From IMG/VR virus record IMGVR_UViG_3300024308_000060, positions 1 to 24,130 of that record: a stretch of 24,130 bases of DNA, one strand, 5' to 3'. This DNA comes from a virus. Numbering within the stretch: position 1 is the first letter of the stretch; every line of letters starts with the position of its first letter. This document shows positions 8,206 through 21,537 of the stretch, in pieces. The translations under genes were made by a program, and so were the position numbers. The notes below the pieces were generated by a model. The model worked only from the letters and a program-made list of their open reading frames with translations. It made no database searches and was not told where the DNA came from.

Positions 8206-8586
8206 TCAGCAAAAACCGTGCTTATTCATCGCGGTCATGAGCTCGGCCTTGAACGCGGAGAAGTCCACCGCTTTCTGAATGAACTCGATAGCTCCCAACT
8301 CCCGCGCACGTTTCCGATCAGACTGCAACCCGGAGCCGGACAGCATGATCGTGGGGATGGCAATCTGATGGGAAGTGCGCAGCTTCTCAAGCAAATCAAA
8401 TCCATTTACCTTCGGCATTTTTATGTCGAGCAGGAGAAGGTCAATCGGCGTTTCTTGCAGGGCAATATAGGCCTCCTCGCCATCCCGCGCAACGCGGAGC
8501 GTGTGCGGCACGCTGCAGCTTTCGAGGGCAATGGTAGTGAGCATGACATCAACCATGGCATCGTCGACCAGGAGTATTTTGATCAT
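8206..8586 (-). CDS. Single-domain response regulator (CheY/Rcp1-like receiver)
   Basis: A 126-residue stand-alone phosphoacceptor domain with no output domain. All receiver signature residues are present: acidic pair Asp8-Asp9 ('ILLVDD'), phosphorylation site Asp54 ('LLLLDIKMPKVNG'), Ser83 ('MLSGSG') and Lys105 ('FIQK'). It is therefore expected to accept phosphate and signal by protein-protein contact. It lies between the Q-like antiterminator gene (stop 8630) and the putative late promoter. No histidine kinase is near, so any phosphodonor would be a host kinase. No good ribosome-binding site precedes ATG 8586. A divergent relative is encoded on the other strand at 9452-9886. Receivers are rare in phage genomes; a host-derived cargo gene is the simplest reading. 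Confidence 0.9.
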   Translation of the reverse strand: MIKILLVDDAMVDVMLTTIALESCSVPHTLRVARDGEEAYIALQETPIDLLLLDIKMPKVNGFDLLEKLRTSHQIAIPTIMLSGSGLQSDRKRARELGAIEFIQKAVDFSAFKAELMTAMNKHGFC

Positions 8587-9435: not shown

Positions 9436-9444
9436 TGATATGAT
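9436..9444 (+). promoter_or_regulatory. Extended -10 promoter candidate for the rightward receiver gene
   Basis: TGATATGAT matches the extended -10 form TGnTATAAT with one mismatch. A TTGCAC at 9412-9417 lies 18 bases before an alternative -10 reading (TGATAT). Initiation about 7 bases after the -10 would fall at 9451-9452, on the ATG of the receiver gene, suggesting a leaderless or nearly leaderless mRNA. The surrounding 9173-9451 stretch is AT-richer than its flanks and shows no other clear feature. Confidence 0.4.
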
Positions 9445-9451
9445 TCCCGCT

Positions 9452-9886
9452 ATGAGAATGAAGATATTGCTCGTCGAAGACTCTGACATGGATGCCGAGC
9501 TCGCAATTCATGCATTACGGCGGGGAGGATTCGTGGGGGAGATTGTCCGCGCAGTTGATGGGGGTGTTGCGTTATGGCATTTGGCTGTCTGCCAAGACTT
9601 TAACCTTGTGTTGCTCGACCTGAAGCTGAGGGTCGTAGGTGGATTTGAGTTCTTGACGATGTTGCACGACAATCCGAAGCTTGCCGGCATCCCTGTAATA
9701 ATCCTGAGCGGGACGCTCGATCCTCTTGACCGTCAACGCGCTCGTGAACTCGGCGCAGCGGATTTCGTGCAAAAATATCCTGACTTGTCGCTTTTATCTC
9801 GTGCCCTCGCAGACGCTATAGGTCTGTTGACGAATACTCCAGACAGTGACGAGAACCCGAAAAGCGCGCGATCCAGATCGCTCTAA
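9452..9886 (+). CDS. Second single-domain response regulator (receiver), opposite strand
   Basis: A 144-residue receiver domain with Glu9-Asp10 ('ILLVEDSD'), phosphorylation site Asp56 ('LVLLDLKL'), Ser86 ('IILSG') and Lys108 ('FVQK') all retained. The usual 'MPxxxG' after the phospho-Asp is replaced by 'L-R-V-V-G-G', lacking the proline. A ~20-residue polar tail (SDENPKSARSRSL) follows the domain. It resembles the 8206-8586 receiver in order of motifs (including 'RARELGA') but is clearly divergent. It reads against all neighbouring phage genes, in AT-richer DNA and with its own promoter candidate, which is the profile of a phage cargo ('moron') gene. Starts at 9440 (with GGAA upstream) and 9458 are also possible. 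Confidence 0.88.
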   Translation: MRMKILLVEDSDMDAELAIHALRRGGFVGEIVRAVDGGVALWHLAVCQDFNLVLLDLKLRVVGGFEFLTMLHDNPKLAGIPVIILSGTLDPLDRQRARELGAADFVQKYPDLSLLSRALADAIGLLTNTPDSDENPKSARSRSL

Positions 9887-12793: not shown

Positions 12794-13282
12794 TCAGGCA
12801 GCTTCCCTGGCCAGCTCGCGCACGACGCTGGTCGAATTGATGTGGTGGCGCACGCGGCGGTCGACTTCGCGGCACGCGCGCTCGACGTCGATGGCGCGGA
12901 CGTTCTCGAGCTGGGCGTCGTGGCATTCCAGCGCCTCGCGGATCGCGGTGAGCTCGTCGCCCTTCATGATCACGCGGTCGAGTTTTACGATGCGCTTGCC
13001 CACCTCGAGCAGCGCGTCGCGCGCAGCGATGGTCACCTGGCGGAATTCGTCACCGATCCCCTGCTCGCACATCACGTTGGCCATGTTGATCGCGCCCACC
13101 AGCAGGTCCCAGCCCTCCCGTGTGCCGGTGCCCTGCGCCATGTCGGCCAAGGCCTTGTGGCTGCGGATCTGGATCAGGCGCAGGTGGTCGACGTGGTCGC
13201 CACTCATCCCGCCGAAGACGGTGGTCAGGACGTTGCGGGCCACGTACTTCGGGCGGTATTTCTTGTTGCGCGGCTTCTTCAC
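12794..13282 (-). CDS. Conserved hypothetical phage protein, 162 aa
   Basis: A mostly helical protein starting MKKPRNKKYRPKYVARN, a strongly basic N-terminus that could bind nucleic acid. A segment with 'ALADMAQGTGTREGWDLLVGAINMANVM' follows, then long charged helices. I recall similar prophage proteins starting 'KKYRPK' with a conserved 'G-x-W-x-x-L-x-x-x-x-N' segment, but with no assigned function. It overlaps the stop of the helicase-methyltransferase gene (ATGA at 13282-13279), so it is probably made together with it. No catalytic motif is visible. Confidence 0.7.
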   Translation of the reverse strand: MKKPRNKKYRPKYVARNVLTTVFGGMSGDHVDHLRLIQIRSHKALADMAQGTGTREGWDLLVGAINMANVMCEQGIGDEFRQVTIAARDALLEVGKRIVKLDRVIMKGDELTAIREALECHDAQLENVRAIDVERACREVDRRVRHHINSTSVVRELAREAA

Positions 13283-15894
13283 GCTGCCTCCCGCTCCGGT
13301 TGGTCGGCGTCGGCCGCCTCAAAATCGAACAGCGTCGGCATGCTGACCTCGCGCTCCATGGCACGGCAGTAGTGCACCTGATCGGAGAAGTAGGCCGGGT
13401 TCAGTTCCGAGCCGGCGCCGCGGCGACCCAGCCTCATCGCGCGCACCGGAACCGTGCCCAGGCCGCAGAATGGGTCGTACACCACGTCGCCCTGGTTGCT
13501 GTAGCGGTTAATCAAACGGTCGACGATGTCGATCTGGAACGGGCAGACATGCTTCTCGACCGCGCGTGCCGACTGCTCGCCGTTCAGGGTGCGCATCCGG
13601 ACAATGTCGTGCCAGACCATCGGATCGGCGCTGCCCGGCGCCAGGCTGAGGTAGTCGGCCGGCAGCGCCTTGTTGGCCAGCATCTGCTCCCCGACCGCGA
13701 CATGCAGCTCGTAGTTGTAGACGTTCGCCAGCGACATGTCAGTGAACACCTTGGACAGCTTCGCCGGGCCGTAGGCGGCGATTTCCTCGGCGCCGAGCAG
13801 CCGGTCGCCGCTCGAGCGCCAGAAGGCGTGCGCATCGACCTGCCAGCGCGCCACGCTGTAGCCGGTGCCGGGGATCGGCGCCAGCTTGCGATCGAACGCC
13901 ACCGGGGCGCCGTCGTCGGCCTGGCACAGCGGCTTGGACTTGGTCACCGGCTCGTCCGCGTAGCCGCGGCTGCGGTCCGTCTGCGGCTTGTGGAACAGCA
14001 GGATGTACTCGGGCGAGCCGACGCCCATTTTCGTGCCGTCCTTGCACACCTCGCTGTAGCCCAGGCGGTAGGTCTGGTTGTTCTCGCGCACCACGTCGGT
14101 CACTACCGTGATCATGCCCAGGTAGTCGAACCCATGCTTCATGCCGTGGAACAGCGCCTCGGCGTGGAACGGGCTGACGGTGGGCACGCCGGCGCCGGTC
14201 ACGTTGCCGAAATTGATCCGGTCTTTCACGTGGCAGGCGTAGATGCGGCCCGGCTGCAAGATCCGGTGCAGCTGCGGCGTCAGGAAATCCATCTGGGCCC
14301 AGAAGTGGGCGTTGTCCTGGGTGTGGCCGAAATCGTTGTAGCTGGGCGTGTACTCGTAGTGGTTCGCGAACGGGATGCTGGTCAGGATCATGCCGACCGA
14401 GTTATCCGGCTGCTCGAGCGCCTCCAGCACGCAGTCGTTGTTCGCCACGGTGAAGCGCTCGCCCTTGACCACGTGCCGCTCGACGCCGATCGTGCGCGCC
14501 AGGCTGTCCTGCATCGAAAGCTGGTCCAGACCGTAGGTGCGGATGATCTCGCCCATCTTCTCCTGCATCTCGTCGTGGCGGCGCCACTTCTCCTGCAGTT
14601 CGGCCAGCACCGCGCGCTCCACCTCCGTGTGGATGATGTCGATGCGCACCGGATGCGTCTGCTGGAAGCGCTGGATTCGGTGGATGGCCTGAATGAAGTC
14701 GTTGAACTTGAACCCGATGCCGGCGAAGATCGCGCGGTGGCAGTGCAGCTGGAAGTTGCAGCCCGAGCCGGCGATAATCGGCTTGGTCGACAGGATCGGG
14801 AACTTGCCGTCGCTGAAATCGGCAATCCGCTGCTCGCGCTCGTCCAGATCTTGCGTGCCCCACACGCTCACCGCCGCCGGCAGCGCCGCCTGGATGGCGT
14901 GTCGCTCATCCTCGAGGTCGTGCCAGATCACGAAGTGGTCAGCAGGATCCGCCGCAACGATCTCGGCCACCTTGGCGACGCGCGCTCCCAGGCTCTGCCG
15001 CTTCTCGCCGGCGGCGGCCGACAGCCCCATGGCCACGTTCGGGATCAGCAGGCCCTGACCGTTCTTCTCGGCGCCGGCCGCCTCGTAGTCGCTCGGCACC
15101 TCGTGGTAGTGCACCTCGAGCGGCGGCAGGTCGTAGCCCTCGTCCGAATGCCCCAGATCGCTCGGGCGCCGGATGAAGCACGCCCAGCTGGCCACCCACA
15201 GCCAGAATTCCGTTTCCTTGTGCGGGTAGAGGGTCAGGTTGCCGGCCTTTTCGCTGTCGCGCTGGAAGAAGCGGGTCAGCGCCTGGCCAGTGTCCATCAC
15301 GCCAAGGAAACCTGCGTAGTGGATCAGCTCCTTGAAGCGATTCGGGCTCGGCGTGGCGGTGAATACGAACTTGAACTCGACTTGGTCGAACAGTGGCAGG
15401 AACTCCTGATAGGTCTTGCTGCCGAAGCTGCGCAGAATGCTCGCCTCGTCCAGCGATGCGGCGCCGAACTTGCGCGGGTCGACCTTCCCCTCGCGCACGC
15501 TCTCGTAATTGGTCATGTAGATGGTGTCGGTGCCGCCGATCTCGTCGTCCGAGCGGATGAACTTCAGGTCGATCGCATGCTCGCCGGTGAAGCGCTTCGC
15601 CACCTCACGAGTGAACTCCTGGCGCACGCCCAGCGGCAGCACGATCAGGCGCAGGCACGGCCGGTGGATGCCGATCTGGCGCATCACCTCGAGGTTGGTG
15701 CTGGTCTTGTGCAGGCCGAACGACGCGAAGATGGCGCGTTGGCCGCCCTGCAATGCCCACCGAACGATGTCGCGGGTGTGCGGCTTCAAGCCTGGGTTGA
15801 TCTGCTCGAGCGGGACGTCGAAGCCCATGCGCGGCGCCAGTTTGATCTTGGCGCGGAGGAAGTCGTTGTAATCGCTTAAAATGTTGCCAGACAT
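13279..15894 (-). CDS. Helicase-DNA methyltransferase fusion protein
   Basis: 871 residues. The first half is a superfamily-2 helicase: motif I 'ASFGLHKTS' (residues 57-65; His where Gly is usual in GxGKT), motif II 'LDEAS' (148-152), motif III 'TATPSPN' (179-185) and motif VI-like 'AIHRIQRFQQ' (403-412). The second half is an amino-methyltransferase with motif IV 'TSIPF' (505-509, in place of D/S-P-P-Y/F) and the SAM-binding motif I 'DPFCGLGT' (807-814) near the C-terminus, followed by 'GSELNP'. The order IV then I is the permuted beta-class order of N6-adenine or N4-cytosine enzymes. It probably methylates phage DNA to escape host restriction, with the helicase giving DNA translocation or remodelling. 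Start 15894 has GGAG and follows the repeated hairpin-box element. Confidence 0.88.
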   Translation of the reverse strand: MSGNILSDYNDFLRAKIKLAPRMGFDVPLEQINPGLKPHTRDIVRWALQGGQRAIFASFGLHKTSTNLEVMRQIGIHRPCLRLIVLPLGVRQEFTREVAKRFTGEHAIDLKFIRSDDEIGGTDTIYMTNYESVREGKVDPRKFGAASLDEASILRSFGSKTYQEFLPLFDQVEFKFVFTATPSPNRFKELIHYAGFLGVMDTGQALTRFFQRDSEKAGNLTLYPHKETEFWLWVASWACFIRRPSDLGHSDEGYDLPPLEVHYHEVPSDYEAAGAEKNGQGLLIPNVAMGLSAAAGEKRQSLGARVAKVAEIVAADPADHFVIWHDLEDERHAIQAALPAAVSVWGTQDLDEREQRIADFSDGKFPILSTKPIIAGSGCNFQLHCHRAIFAGIGFKFNDFIQAIHRIQRFQQTHPVRIDIIHTEVERAVLAELQEKWRRHDEMQEKMGEIIRTYGLDQLSMQDSLARTIGVERHVVKGERFTVANNDCVLEALEQPDNSVGMILTSIPFANHYEYTPSYNDFGHTQDNAHFWAQMDFLTPQLHRILQPGRIYACHVKDRINFGNVTGAGVPTVSPFHAEALFHGMKHGFDYLGMITVVTDVVRENNQTYRLGYSEVCKDGTKMGVGSPEYILLFHKPQTDRSRGYADEPVTKSKPLCQADDGAPVAFDRKLAPIPGTGYSVARWQVDAHAFWRSSGDRLLGAEEIAAYGPAKLSKVFTDMSLANVYNYELHVAVGEQMLANKALPADYLSLAPGSADPMVWHDIVRMRTLNGEQSARAVEKHVCPFQIDIVDRLINRYSNQGDVVYDPFCGLGTVPVRAMRLGRRGAGSELNPAYFSDQVHYCRAMEREVSMPTLFDFEAADADQPEREAA

Positions 15895-15896
15895 AA

Positions 15897-16439
15897 TTAC
15901 TCCAAGGTGATTTGTTTAGAGGCCGCGCCGGCTGCAACCGTCGCGGCTTCGCTATTTCGGATCAGGGCGATGCACTCGGCCAGCAGCTGCAACTGCGTGC
16001 CGTAGCGCTCTTCGAAGCGGGCCTTGTACGGGTGGACCGCGATGAGGGTCGGGTTCGTGCCGGTGCCGTCCTGGTGGTGGCCAGCGCACAGCGGCAGGAC
16101 CAGCAGGTGCGCGTCCTGCTTCGTGCGGCCGTCGATGTGGTGCACGCTGACTTCCGGGTTGTGCCAGCCGTCCGCGCGGCACGCGATGCAGCCCAGGGCC
16201 GCGATCGCCGACATGAACCGCGCTTCGTCGGCGGTCGGCGGGCGGCCCTTCATGCCGCGCGACTTCATCGCCTTCGGCAGCTTTGCCGGCTTCGGCTCGC
16301 GGGCCCGGGCCTGCGCCTGGACTGCGGCGACGCGCAGCAGGCCGGCGCCGGCAGCGGGCGACTTGAAACCAGTACCGCGGGCGATCGGTGCCTTGCGCTG
16401 GAGCGGCTTGCCCGGCTTGAGGGCTGAGCGGCGCATCAT
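15897..16439 (-). CDS. ref: Ref-family RecA-dependent nuclease
   Basis: 180 residues resembling phage P1 Ref, an HNH-type nuclease that cuts DNA within RecA-bound D-loops and stimulates recombination. The N-terminal ~65 residues are basic and Ala/Pro-rich (disordered, DNA-binding in Ref). Then 'KSRGMKGRPPTADEARFMSAIAALGCIACR' leads to the nuclease core 'EVSVHHIDGRTK' (His-His), 'LPLCAGHH' and a C-terminal 'ARFEERYGTQLQLLAECIALI'. The final ~14 residues (AATVAAGAASKQITLE) are encoded by the repeated hairpin-box element shared with 22928-22969 and look like an appended tail. The start (two ATGs, 16439 and 16436) faces a rightward small gene across only 35 bases. Confidence 0.88.
   Translation of the reverse strand: MMRRSALKPGKPLQRKAPIARGTGFKSPAAGAGLLRVAAVQAQARAREPKPAKLPKAMKSRGMKGRPPTADEARFMSAIAALGCIACRADGWHNPEVSVHHIDGRTKQDAHLLVLPLCAGHHQDGTGTNPTLIAVHPYKARFEERYGTQLQLLAECIALIRNSEAATVAAGAASKQITLE
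15901..15947 (-). promoter_or_regulatory. Hairpin-box element, copy 2 (upstream of helicase-methyltransferase)
   Basis: Minus strand: a hairpin (15947-15922; 9 pairs with one mismatch, loop TTGCAG), then CTCTAAA, then CAAATCACCTTGGA (15914-15901), ending at the ribosome-binding site of the 871-aa gene. The same loop and the same 14-base box occur at 22928-22969 with a different but still paired stem. This copy overlaps the 3' end of ref. Possible cis-acting RNA or a module-joining sequence. Confidence 0.5.
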
Positions 16440-17384: not shown

Positions 17385-17912
17385 TCAGGCCTTCGTATGG
17401 AAGGATTGACCCGTGCGCACCGACCACGCCGGGATGTCTTGGCGGGTGCCGCGCGGGTTCGGGATGTACTTCTTGCTCAGCGACGGGCGCGTGAAGACGT
17501 CCGGCGAGGTGCGCACCGCGGCGATCTGGCCGACCCACTGCACAGGCTCGATGCCGGCCAGCTTGTCGAAGTGGCCGCGAGCATAGGTGCTGATGTCGAT
17601 CTTGCCCTCGCGCTCAATCAGCCAGCCATAGGCCATGGCGCGCTGCAGCGCCTCTTCTGGCCGCGTGCTCATGCCGCCGAAGTCAACCGCAGCGAACAGC
17701 TGCCGCGCCGGCGTGGTGCCGTTCTTGTACAGGTATTCGCCCGCAGCATAGGCGGCGGTGCCGCGGCCAGCCGTGCGAACTGGATTAATGTGCTTGCCCA
17801 TGGTCGGGCCTCCAAATGGTGGATTCTGTGGAATGTCGGACATCGACGCGGACTCATCCTGGGGGCGCCCACAATCGACGCATTGCAGTGGGGAGTGGAG
17901 GATCCAGGTCAT
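17385..17912 (-). CDS. Hypothetical phage protein with two possible starts
   Basis: From ATG 17912 (overlapping the previous stop, with GGAGG 7 bases upstream) the product is 175 residues. From ATG 17801 (GGAGG 8 bases upstream) it is 138 residues, starting MGKHINPVRTAGRGTAAYAA. The N-terminal extension carries 'C-V-D-C-G-R-P'. The shared part, 'AAYAAGEYLYKNGTTPARQLFAAVDFGG', 'EEALQRAMAYGWLIEREGKIDISTYARGHFDKL' and a polar tail, looks like a small winged-helix-type domain, although this is only pattern-based. Two strong ribosome-binding sites in one frame suggest nested products or a recent start change. Function unknown. Confidence 0.65.
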   Translation of the reverse strand: MTWILHSPLQCVDCGRPQDESASMSDIPQNPPFGGPTMGKHINPVRTAGRGTAAYAAGEYLYKNGTTPARQLFAAVDFGGMSTRPEEALQRAMAYGWLIEREGKIDISTYARGHFDKLAGIEPVQWVGQIAAVRTSPDVFTRPSLSKKYIPNPRGTRQDIPAWSVRTGQSFHTKA

Positions 17913-19138
17913 AGCTCAGCCTCCGAGAAGAGCCGCGGCTGCACGGCGCCGTTCTGATAGACCGTGTCCATGATCGTGGTAGCAATCGGCTCGTCGCCAT
18001 CCCACCCGCGCGGCCAGGTCTCCAGGGCGACGAGCTCGCGGATGCGCGCCTCTTCCTCGGCGTTGATCATGTCGACCAGCGGGCGGCCCAGCGCGGTGGC
18101 GGCAGCATTCACCTCGGCCTGGATGGCCAGCAGGCGCTCCAGACCCATGAGGCGCGCCTCGAAGGTCAGCGGCCCCATGCGCTGGGGATTCTTGCCGATG
18201 CTCCCGTCCTTCAGGCGCTCGATGCCTGCCTTGCGCAGTCGGTGCTGCGGCTCGCGCAACTCGCGCCAGAGCACCTTGATGCCCTTCATCGGCGCCAGGT
18301 ATGCCCAGTGCGGATTCTTGAGGATGGTGTCGAGCGCCGAATCCTCCTGGGCGAGCGGGCAGCCGATGCAGCCGGTGCGCGCGTTGATCTCCTCGGCCTC
18401 GTCCCCGCCGTAGGCATCAGCGATCGCCGCCGTGCTCCAGTCGCCGAACTCGGCCGTCGGCGCCCAGTGCTTGAGCCATTCCCACACGTGGCAGACCCGC
18501 CAGTGCAGCAGTGGCGCCAGCGTGGCCAGCCGGCCCCGCAGGCCCTTCGCGTTCGGCAGGACCTGCTGATACCATCCCTGCCCACACTCGGCGCCATCCT
18601 TCCCACAGCTCATCTCGATGCGGCGATCGCGGATAGCGCTTTCGCCCTGGCGCACGCCGGTGATCATCAGGACTTGGCCCTCGAGCGACTCGACGTGGCG
18701 GCGCAGCGCCTCTTCCATCGGCTCGATCTTGATCTGGCCCGTGCACCAGCGCAGCGTGTTGTTGTTCGGCGGCGGCACTCCGCGGCCGAGGATGTAGACC
18801 ATGAAGCGGTCGTCGAGCGGGGCCATCACGACCTCGACCTTGATGCCGCGCTCCTCCAACTCGTCCATGATCTGGCGCGCCGACGCGGCGAGCGGCAAAA
18901 GCTCCTGGCGCGTGTCCGCGTAGAACACCGTCAGCGTCCGTGGGCGGCGAATCTTGCCGGTGTCGATCAGATAGATCAGCAGGGTCAGCGTGGCAGAACT
19001 GTCCTTGCCACCGGACCAAGCCACGCCCCAGTGATCGTGGTCGGCACCGTAGGCCTCGAGCGACTGGATCGTGAGCTCGATCGATTCGGTCATCTGCATG
19101 CGGCGCGCGCCGGCGCCGAAGATATCGATCTGATTCAT
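17909..19138 (-). CDS. PP-loop / PAPS-reductase-family protein, DndC-like
   Basis: 409 residues. The ATP-pyrophosphatase loop 'SGGKDSS' is at residues 42-48, followed by 'FYADTRQEL'. Cysteines in 'RWCTGQIKIEP' (Cys132), Cys178/Cys185 and 'TGCIGCPL' (Cys257, Cys260) are placed as in Fe-S-cluster proteins of the DndC/PAPS-reductase-like group. 'ITGVRQGES' and 'R-x-x-R' elements fit substrate binding. Members either reduce activated sulfate or, in DndC, activate DNA for phosphorothioate sulfur insertion. The start at 19138 overlaps the stop of the cytosine methyltransferase (ATGA), so the two are coupled, which points to DNA modification rather than cysteine synthesis. No dndA/B/D/E homolog is seen. 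The specific substrate is not knowable from this sequence. Confidence 0.87.
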   Translation of the reverse strand: MNQIDIFGAGARRMQMTESIELTIQSLEAYGADHDHWGVAWSGGKDSSATLTLLIYLIDTGKIRRPRTLTVFYADTRQELLPLAASARQIMDELEERGIKVEVVMAPLDDRFMVYILGRGVPPPNNNTLRWCTGQIKIEPMEEALRRHVESLEGQVLMITGVRQGESAIRDRRIEMSCGKDGAECGQGWYQQVLPNAKGLRGRLATLAPLLHWRVCHVWEWLKHWAPTAEFGDWSTAAIADAYGGDEAEEINARTGCIGCPLAQEDSALDTILKNPHWAYLAPMKGIKVLWRELREPQHRLRKAGIERLKDGSIGKNPQRMGPLTFEARLMGLERLLAIQAEVNAAATALGRPLVDMINAEEEARIRELVALETWPRGWDGDEPIATTIMDTVYQNGAVQPRLFSEAEL

Positions 19139-21537
19139 GCTGCCACCCCGGCGATTTGCCGTTCGTGCGCGAAGTTGGCGCGGATCAGCGCCTCCGACAG
19201 CGGTGGGCACACGCTGTTGCCGCACATGCGCACCTGGGCCGACTTCGTCAGCGGGATGCGCGGGAGCGACAGCGGGTCTCCGTCGACCTGCTCGCCACCC
19301 ACGAACAGCAGCTCCGGATCGGGGATTTCGTCGATGACGTAGGCGGCTGGGAAGCCCTGGGCGCGGTACAGTTCGTGCGGCGCCAGCATGCGCAGACCGA
19401 TGTCGACGATTTCGTAATCCTGGCCGTGGATCGTGACCAGGCCGAAGCGGTCGCGGCTGGTGACCGTGGCCAGCGGCGAACCGGGCGTCTGATCCTGATC
19501 GGTGCCGTAGTAGGCCAGCAAGAAGGCGCGCACCTCGGCGTGATGCTGGCCACCGGCGCTGATCGTGTGCAACGGCTCGTCGGTGCCGGCCGCCGTGCTG
19601 GTACCGCGCAGCTTGACCAGGCTACTCGTCATCAAAGCATGGCGCGCGCTGGCAGTCACCGTCTTCAGCGGGTCGCCAGCGCATTGGCCGCGGGACTCCT
19701 CCCCCTTCTGCGAATACATCGCCTCAATGTGGGCGGTGACGATGCCCAGCGCGTGAGGGGCGCCGGCCGGATTTTCCCTCGGGCCGGCCGTGATGGTCGG
19801 CACCGGCTCGGCCAGGTCGCTGCCGGTCGAGCCGGTGCGGAACTTGGTCAGGTGGGCCGTGACCAGGCTGTGGTGATCCGAACTGGTGACCGTACCGATT
19901 GGGTCTTCAAGATCGGATCCGACCACGCCAGTGTAGTGCTTCGCCAGGAAGGCAGTGGCCACCGCGGTGTCGCCCTTGGCCGTGATCGTCGCAGTCGGCT
20001 CGTCGGCGCCGCGAGGGCGGCTGTCACCGGCGCGCCCGCCCACGCCGACCAGCGCGGCCGAGACCAGGCCGAAGTGCCCGCCTTTCACCTGGGCGCAGAC
20101 CGTGCGCAGCGGCGCGTCGGCCGGCATCACGCGCTGGTTGCTCGCGTTGGCATGCTCGTTGAGAAACGCGGTGACCAGTGCAGCCTTGGTCGAGCCTACG
20201 ACGGTACCGAGCGGTTTCTCGATGTCCAGTGCGCGCGCCTCTTGTGCCGTGCTGACCAGAGTGATCCGATTTTCTTCACCGCATTGCGGACACTCAGCCG
20301 GCGCCAGTCCGCCCGCACCGGTGGCATGCTTGTCCTTGAAGTCGAGGGCGCAATCGGGGCAGTGATACACGGCCGGCCGCTCGCCGTAGCCGGTCTGCAC
20401 CATGGTGGCGACGGCCAGCGCTTGGTTGCCGGCGGACGTCACTGTCGGCAGTGGGCTATCGGCATCGGCGCCGGGGTGGCCAGTCGTGTTGGTCATGACG
20501 AACGGGCGTAGGGTCGCGCTGGCCAGCGCCTTCTCGCCGCGCTGCGCGCCGGTGATCGTACGGAAAGGCTCGTGCACCGACTCGCTGCGGTCACTGCCTT
20601 GGTGCGTCACCGGGACGATGCTCGGGACGACCACCGCGCGGTGATTTTCGGTGGTCAGGGTACCGATCGGCTGGTTGGCCGTGACCGGCTTGCCGGCGTA
20701 GATCGGGCCGCCCTGCCCCACGATGAACGGATCCGCCGCGTCGACCACGTAGCGCATGATGCCCTTGGCGATGCGGCGCAGCGTGGCCTCTGCCAGCGGG
20801 CGCTTGCGGCTGAAGATGCTCGGGCACTCCAGCGACCAGTCGATGCATTCCGCCGCGGTTCGGTACGGCTGCAGCTTGCCCGCGCGGACGGCCGGCGAGT
20901 CCGGCGCGCCGTTGGTCGGCGCCGGCCACTGGATCGGCAGGCCGTCGCGGCGCGCCACCAGGAAGAAGCGCTTGCGGATCGTCGGGGTGTCGTAGTCGCT
21001 GGCGCGCAGCTCGCGGTGGTCGACCTTGTAGCCGTGGGCCTCCAGCTGGCGGACGAACGATTCAAACGTCTTGCCGCGCTTCGCCGGGTCCGGCTTCCAG
21101 TGCCCGTGCTCGTCCTGGATCAGCGGGCCCCACGTTTTGAACTCTTCCACGTTTTCGAGCATGATCACTCGCGGCTTGCACTTCGCCGCCCAGCGCAACG
21201 TCACCCAGGCCAGGCCGCGGATCTTCTTCTCTACCGGCTTGCCGCCCTTGGCTTTGCTGAAATGCTTGCAGTCGGGCGAAAGCCAGACCAGGGCCACCGG
21301 CTGGTTGCCGGTTACCTCGATCGGGTCGATGTCCCACACGCTCTCGCACAGGTGCTTCGTGTGCGGGTGGTTGATGGCGTGCATGGCCAGCGCTTCGGGG
21401 TCGTGGTTGATTGCGATGTCGACCGGGCGGCCGAACGCGGCTTCCAGGCCGGTGCTGGTCCCGCCGCCGCCGGCGAAGTTGTCGATGATGAGCTCGTGGC
21501 CCAGGTCCAGCTGCATGGTGATGAGGTCGCGCTTCAT
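19135..21537 (-). CDS. C5-cytosine DNA methyltransferase with repeat array
   Basis: 800 residues, starting MKRDLITMQLDLGHELIIDN, with GGAGG 8 bases before ATG 21537. SAM-binding motif I is 'DNFAGGGGTSTGLE' (19-32); the catalytic loop 'WLSPDCKHFSK' has Cys90; motif VI 'ENVEEF' is at 128-133; motif VIII 'RKRFFLVARR' at 188-197; motif IX 'GLRMLAPHELYRAQGFP' near 714-730; and motif X 'GNSVCPPLSEALI' at 773-785. Between motifs VIII and IX, residues about 288-705 hold some eleven ~30-60-residue repeats of the form 'E-P-L-x-T-I-T-x-x-x-x-H-x-L-V-x-A-x-L'. A zinc-ribbon insertion (Cys393, 396, 416, 419) sits inside the third. Ordinary enzymes of this class are 300-450 residues. It presumably modifies phage DNA against restriction. 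It is coupled by ATGA to both neighbours. Confidence 0.93.
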   Translation of the reverse strand: MKRDLITMQLDLGHELIIDNFAGGGGTSTGLEAAFGRPVDIAINHDPEALAMHAINHPHTKHLCESVWDIDPIEVTGNQPVALVWLSPDCKHFSKAKGGKPVEKKIRGLAWVTLRWAAKCKPRVIMLENVEEFKTWGPLIQDEHGHWKPDPAKRGKTFESFVRQLEAHGYKVDHRELRASDYDTPTIRKRFFLVARRDGLPIQWPAPTNGAPDSPAVRAGKLQPYRTAAECIDWSLECPSIFSRKRPLAEATLRRIAKGIMRYVVDAADPFIVGQGGPIYAGKPVTANQPIGTLTTENHRAVVVPSIVPVTHQGSDRSESVHEPFRTITGAQRGEKALASATLRPFVMTNTTGHPGADADSPLPTVTSAGNQALAVATMVQTGYGERPAVYHCPDCALDFKDKHATGAGGLAPAECPQCGEENRITLVSTAQEARALDIEKPLGTVVGSTKAALVTAFLNEHANASNQRVMPADAPLRTVCAQVKGGHFGLVSAALVGVGGRAGDSRPRGADEPTATITAKGDTAVATAFLAKHYTGVVGSDLEDPIGTVTSSDHHSLVTAHLTKFRTGSTGSDLAEPVPTITAGPRENPAGAPHALGIVTAHIEAMYSQKGEESRGQCAGDPLKTVTASARHALMTSSLVKLRGTSTAAGTDEPLHTISAGGQHHAEVRAFLLAYYGTDQDQTPGSPLATVTSRDRFGLVTIHGQDYEIVDIGLRMLAPHELYRAQGFPAAYVIDEIPDPELLFVGGEQVDGDPLSLPRIPLTKSAQVRMCGNSVCPPLSEALIRANFAHERQIAGVAA

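Follow-up and report, generated by a model that had tools for sequence, protein, structure and literature searches.

A likely multispecific phage cytosine-C5 methyltransferase with eleven exchangeable modules in the recognition-domain position

The DNA analysed here (the window) is a linear virus record of 24,130 bases with genes typical of tailed phages, among them those for terminase, portal, protease and capsid proteins. It encodes a DNA (cytosine-C5) methyltransferase in which eleven related units lie in the position of the target-recognition domain (Table 1). We consider it likely that this is a multispecific enzyme whose single recognition domain has been replaced by eleven minimal modules. 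This one enzyme probably shields the phage genome from many bacterial restriction enzymes at once. The modules form a library that is shared among homologous phage enzymes, which acquire, lose and swap them as cassettes and also change their order.

The protein matched PF00145 over residues 17-203 (Pfam; E 2.5e-24) and the DNA methyltransferase family phrog_116 (E 2.9e-97). Motifs I, IV, VI, VIII, IX and X follow one another in order and include the catalytic Cys, which is the set of a C5 methyltransferase; the first four of them are contained in the first 194 residues. Motif IV reads SPDC-KHFS: the catalytic Cys is preceded by Asp, where Pro is usual, and this was invariant in 76/76 aligned homologues. 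Many columns between residues 200 and 269 were also invariant or nearly so in the 76-homologue alignment. As motif VIII is located at residues 185-194 and motif IX at residues 715-730, the array lies between these two motifs, where the original prediction had placed it.

Table 1. Methyltransferase gene of the window, its conserved motifs and its modules; for each module the residue number of the conserved P is given (located by motif and profile HMM)
Feature	Coordinates	Strand	Basis or remark
DNA (cytosine-C5) methyltransferase gene, 800 aa	19135..21537	-	open frame
Motif I FAGGGG, SAM binding	21460..21477	-	residues 21-26; invariant in 76 homologues
Motif IV SPDCKHFS with catalytic Cys90	21256..21279	-	residues 87-94; S87, P88, D89 and C90 invariant
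Motif VI (ENV)	21139..21159	-	residues 127-133
Motif VIII PTIRKRFFLV	20956..20985	-	residues 185-194
Variable region, conserved N-terminal part, ~70 aa before array	20731..20940	-	alignment columns
Module 1, class H (P290)	20617..20730	-	motif / profile HMM and class clustering
Module 2, class F (P324)	20515..20619	-	
Module 3, class O (P362)	20401..20517	-	
Module 4, class p, class-D-like, MVQTGYGER...RALDIEKPLGTVVG (P442), zinc-ribbon-like insert	20161..20415	-	cleanly absent in L028
CPDC...CPQC zinc-ribbon-like insert in first loop of module 4	20281..20361	-	residues 393-419
Module 5, class B (P476)	20059..20163	-	
Module 6, class G (P514)	19945..20061	-	
Module 7, class E (P546)	19849..19947	-	
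Module 8, class L (P578)	19753..19851	-	
Module 9, class q (P623)	19618..19755	-	cleanly absent in L003
Module 10, class C (P655)	19522..19620	-	class C next to last in 80/81 cases
Module 11, class A (P688), runs into motif IX	19423..19524	-	class A last in 115/116 cases
Motif IX LRMLAPHELYRAQGFP	19348..19395	-	residues 715-730
Motif X QVRMCGNSVCPPLSEAL	19186..19236	-	residues 768-784

About eleven repeats had been proposed at 19423-20676. Both the motif and the profile HMM gave exactly eleven units with matching coordinates, and the upstream edge of the array moves to ~20730 once loop 1 of unit 1 is included. The units are ~36 residues long; in each, one loop leads into P-L-x-T-(I/V)-T and another loop connects this with L-V-x-A. 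Each of them scored 20-47 bits with the unit profile HMM; shuffled family proteins reached 3.4 bits at best. When the array was compared with itself, 130 high-scoring 16-residue windows were obtained, whereas 100 shuffles gave 1.15 on average and 8 at most. Self-similarity was thus far above the shuffle background, and the original observation is confirmed. Across the family the P-to-P spacing was 35.9 residues on average (sd 4.1).

The modules measure ~32-45 residues, except for one that is longer owing to an insert. This zinc-ribbon-like insert in unit 4 had escaped the original prediction, which otherwise had the unit count and the coordinates right. A comparable CxxC insert is present in only some relatives: the first loop of class-D-like modules carries zinc-ribbon-like CxxC inserts of differing sequence in L003, L004, L006, L008 and L010. 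Such inserts were apparently gained more than once across the relatives.

With the window protein as query, 79 related loci were found in viral contigs, and two short members used as queries added 98 further loci. Another 39 related loci came from bacterial genomes, and 534 phage records had some match. The 215 proteins examined had between 1 and 11 units, and those with the fewest were from truncated contigs or were very short members; intact members such as those of Vibrio phage K478b and Marinobacter phage AS1 have three units each. Removal of near-duplicates left 192 proteins with 1,248 units, which we sorted into classes by average-linkage clustering at 0.55. This gave 46 classes with at least five members (about 45 common classes), which together hold 1,150 of the 1,248 units.

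Two modules of one class hardly ever occur in the same protein. We observed 2 same-class pairs within a protein, compared with a mean of 145 and a minimum of 118 under a label permutation that ignores the relatedness of the proteins. Because of this simplification, two further controls were made. The nearest unit was located in the unit's own protein in 0/1,248 cases. For 1,245 of the 1,248 units, the best match from proteins with a core identity of <65% was better than the best match in the own protein. Recent local duplication is therefore not how the array grew, and an origin by tandem duplication was rejected.

The 192 proteins contained 164 distinct module strings. Of 269 class pairs that often occur together, 52 were seen in both orders; for example, D precedes B in the relatives of the window protein but follows it in L053 and L064. 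Fixed ancestral positions combined with loss alone are therefore insufficient to account for the strings. Classes A, M and R nearly always occupy the last position and class C the one before it, so that a structural role is conceivable for two or more units. A 116-kb viral contig (IMGVR_UViG_2773857766_000004) encodes two methyltransferases of the family, L058 and L060, with overlapping yet different module sets.

Exchange of modules was evident between close relatives. Among proteins with cores >90% identical, the mean overlap in module content (Jaccard) was no more than 65%, and the shared modules were 91% identical. The cores of L003 and L033 are 97-98% identical to that of the window protein, but their module sets differ; L033, at 97.8% core identity, has the string HZBGYLJCA where the window protein has HFOpBGELqCA. 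At the DNA level, the lack of module 4 in L028 corresponds to a clean excision of gene positions 1121-1357, the flanks of which are adjacent in L028, and the lack of module 9 in L003 to a clean excision of gene positions 1794-1904. Since the borders of these excisions fall within the conserved L-V-x-A, we conclude that the natural cassette comprises loop 1, P-L-x-T-(I/V)-T, loop 2 and L-V-x-A.

Over all classes, the P and the T three residues further on are almost invariant. A class is defined by two stretches, one immediately preceding the P and the other immediately following T-(I/V)-T: positions -8 to -5, +2 and +7 to +11 carry ~2-3 bits of class information, and the entropy within classes is low. 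For the modules common to twelve close relatives, dN/dS was 0.076, compared with 0.094 for the core. Purifying selection thus acts on the modules and on the catalytic core with equal strength. An ordinary recognition domain followed by disordered filler is contradicted by this dN/dS value and by the conservation of the classes, and filler was rejected on the former ground, although AlphaFold2 leaves most units unresolved.

The AlphaFold2 model of the window protein, built with 76 full-length homologues, had a pLDDT of only 20-35 over the array and was good only for the region running into motif IX. Differences in copy number spoil the alignment over the array, and we therefore modelled the 4-unit homologue L156 instead. 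This model (pTM 0.78) matched the fold of M.HhaI over 294/327 residues (Z 29.4). The array of L156 reached a pLDDT of 30-72, with moderate confidence for unit 2 (65-72) and values below 50 for units 3-4, which were unresolved. The model is compatible with a single slot that would be used by one module at a time. In a profile search of the PDB with alignment A2, the matches listed covered motifs I-VIII and IX-X but not the recognition region. Alignment of the C-terminal profile with M.HhaI by hhalign gave no firm register between the T-L doublet and the units.

Functional data are available for homologues. Two prophage m5C enzymes of Paracoccus aminophilus, JCM7686_0772 and JCM7686_2655, were expressed in E. 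coli and protected CCNGG, CCWGG, AGCT, CCGG and GCN7GC sites; their specificity was relaxed, measured as partial protection, and R.PamI was not counteracted (PMC3925955). JCM7686_0772 was not found in one genome scan. Pyei1_p05, which is ~69% identical to the Paracoccus aminophilus enzymes (PMC6536676), aligned with the window protein over 97% of the latter's length at 37% identity and has 8 units. The Aeromonas ARM81mr and ARM81ld methyltransferases have 5 units each, and relaxed specificity is stated for them in PMC5537653, in which the homologue Phi2LM21_p23 is given as inactive in E. coli. The relaxed-specificity enzymes (JCM7686_0772 and _2655, Pyei1_p05, ARM81mr_p29 and ARM81ld_p31) belong to the same family as the window protein, phrog_116; these alphaproteobacterial and Aeromonas prophage enzymes have fewer units than the window protein and differ from it in module classes. 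The accessible parts of PMC3925955, PMC5537653 and PMC6536676 contain no mention of repeats or modules, and a literature search with most subscription papers outside its reach found the repeats of the family nowhere described.

Taken together, these results make the reading of several sequences the best supported of the functions that were originally proposed for the array: the modules are unique within a protein, swappable, under purifying selection and in the recognition-domain position. The relaxed specificity of the close relatives of a unit-bearing homologue adds support. We propose that each module would read its own short cytosine-containing site and that the modules would take turns in one recognition slot opposite the catalytic pocket. 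The enzyme would then methylate several different sites and shield phage DNA from many host restriction enzymes, and the exchange of cassettes may track the restriction repertoire of the hosts. On balance we lean towards the more detailed picture of ~45 autonomous ~36-residue modules that form a phage-wide library, are combined without duplicates up to eleven per enzyme, have their own sites, share one catalytic slot and are swapped to match host restriction.

Partial protection could also come from a generally sloppy enzyme. Phages have non-specific adenine methyltransferases, and by comparison with these the array might be a general DNA-binding surface with weak sequence preference, the modules not being matched to sites. 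We regard this as unlikely. It would agree with the relaxed specificity and partial protection of the homologues, but not with the missing protection against R.PamI (both from PMC3925955). Moreover, the loops vary little among members of one class but are distinct from class to class, a protein hardly ever uses a class twice, and 45 sharply defined classes are not needed for a nonspecific surface. It is quite improbable that one module, such as the last, is the true recognition module and that the others are structural or vestigial copies. The restricted classes at the end of the array and the good modelling of only the region running into motif IX in the large model point in this direction. 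On the other hand, selection on the modules matches that on the core, class identity is kept across proteins with cores <65% identical, and in L156 it is unit 2, not the last unit, that is better modelled.

The original prediction had also considered a solenoid that senses DNA over a long stretch; in a related, TALE-like reading, all units jointly read one long composite site. The tandem arrangement with regular spacing would agree with such an array, but we find it very improbable. Local duplication was not detected, modules are lost or swapped singly while their neighbours stay, and the number of units ranges from about 2-3 to 11. TALE-like readers re-use module types along the array, whereas the window family does almost nothing of the kind. 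AlphaFold2 predicted no solenoid, at the low confidence given above for both models, and the homologues protect several short sites (PMC3925955). Least credible is an anti-restriction scaffold or decoy that binds host proteins and does not act via methylation specificity. The phage setting beside other DNA-modification genes would suit it. However, the catalytic motifs are intact, the units are exactly in the recognition-domain position, and the analysis brought up no evidence for a binding role; all that speaks for an anti-restriction function is that methylation plainly helps a phage to escape restriction.

Several other genes of the window were noted. Directly downstream of the methyltransferase lies a DndC-like gene of the PAPS-reductase family (17909-19147, minus strand; phrog_12882, E 1.9e-236). 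A link to DNA phosphorothioation through this neighbour was dropped, the gene being present in only 3/79 related loci. An 871-residue fusion of a helicase-like part and an N6/N4 DNA methyltransferase part is encoded at 13279-15894 (minus strand) and was found in 21/79 related loci; just upstream of it is a gene for a Ref-like RecA-dependent nuclease (15897-16439, minus strand; PF16786, E 1.2e-30). Two stand-alone response-regulator receiver genes (PF00072) at 8206-8586 (minus strand) and 9440-9886 (plus strand) are unusual cargo for a phage.

How several recognition modules in one C5 methyltransferase use one active site is an old question. The range from ~2 to 11 modules, the ~45 classes and the natural gain and loss of single cassettes make it directly testable, and relatives that are one module apart should differ by one methylation motif. 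If our reading is true, decoding the library would amount to a plug-in code for cytosine methylation. A decoded library would permit the building of methyltransferases of chosen specificity, and the resistance of a phage genome to particular restriction enzymes could be predicted from it. The modules also offer an explanation for the 'relaxed specificity' of prophage m5C enzymes.

The catalytic fold of the window enzyme is that of M.HhaI, but M.HhaI has a single recognition domain where the window enzyme has eleven modules. Structures of C5 methyltransferases show a T-L doublet with recognition loops on either side; in M.HhaI the doublet is T250-L251 (verified in the sequence). Multispecific C5 methyltransferases with a few modules each are known from Bacillus phages (M.SPRI, M.phi3TI, M.rho11SI, M.H2I and M.SPbetaI). 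According to Trautner and co-workers (in EMBO J, 1996; cited in PMC12707154), their variable region is reportedly bipartite, with ~71 constant residues followed by recognition domains of 38-54 residues. Like the window protein, these are phage orphan enzymes in which a constant stretch and then a row of several recognition modules, each with a T-(L/V/I) core, occupy the region between motifs VIII and IX. The window modules are contiguous, non-overlapping and slightly shorter than those of the Bacillus phage enzymes, and they are interchangeable as units between enzymes, as is the case for multispecific C5 methyltransferases. The window family differs in having up to 11 modules, ~45 classes, some zinc-ribbon-like inserts and SPDC instead of PPC in motif IV.

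In SPbeta mtbP, two comparable cores precede motif IX, and hhalign lined up the last of them with unit 11, and the following part with motifs IX-X, in the same register (probability 52%). The unit HMM gave only -1.6 bits on this protein, which is not significant, and the window modules may thus form a sequence family separate from the Bacillus phage modules. The window protein is best described as being built and probably working like a multispecific C5 methyltransferase, of which it would be a much larger variant with eleven modules.
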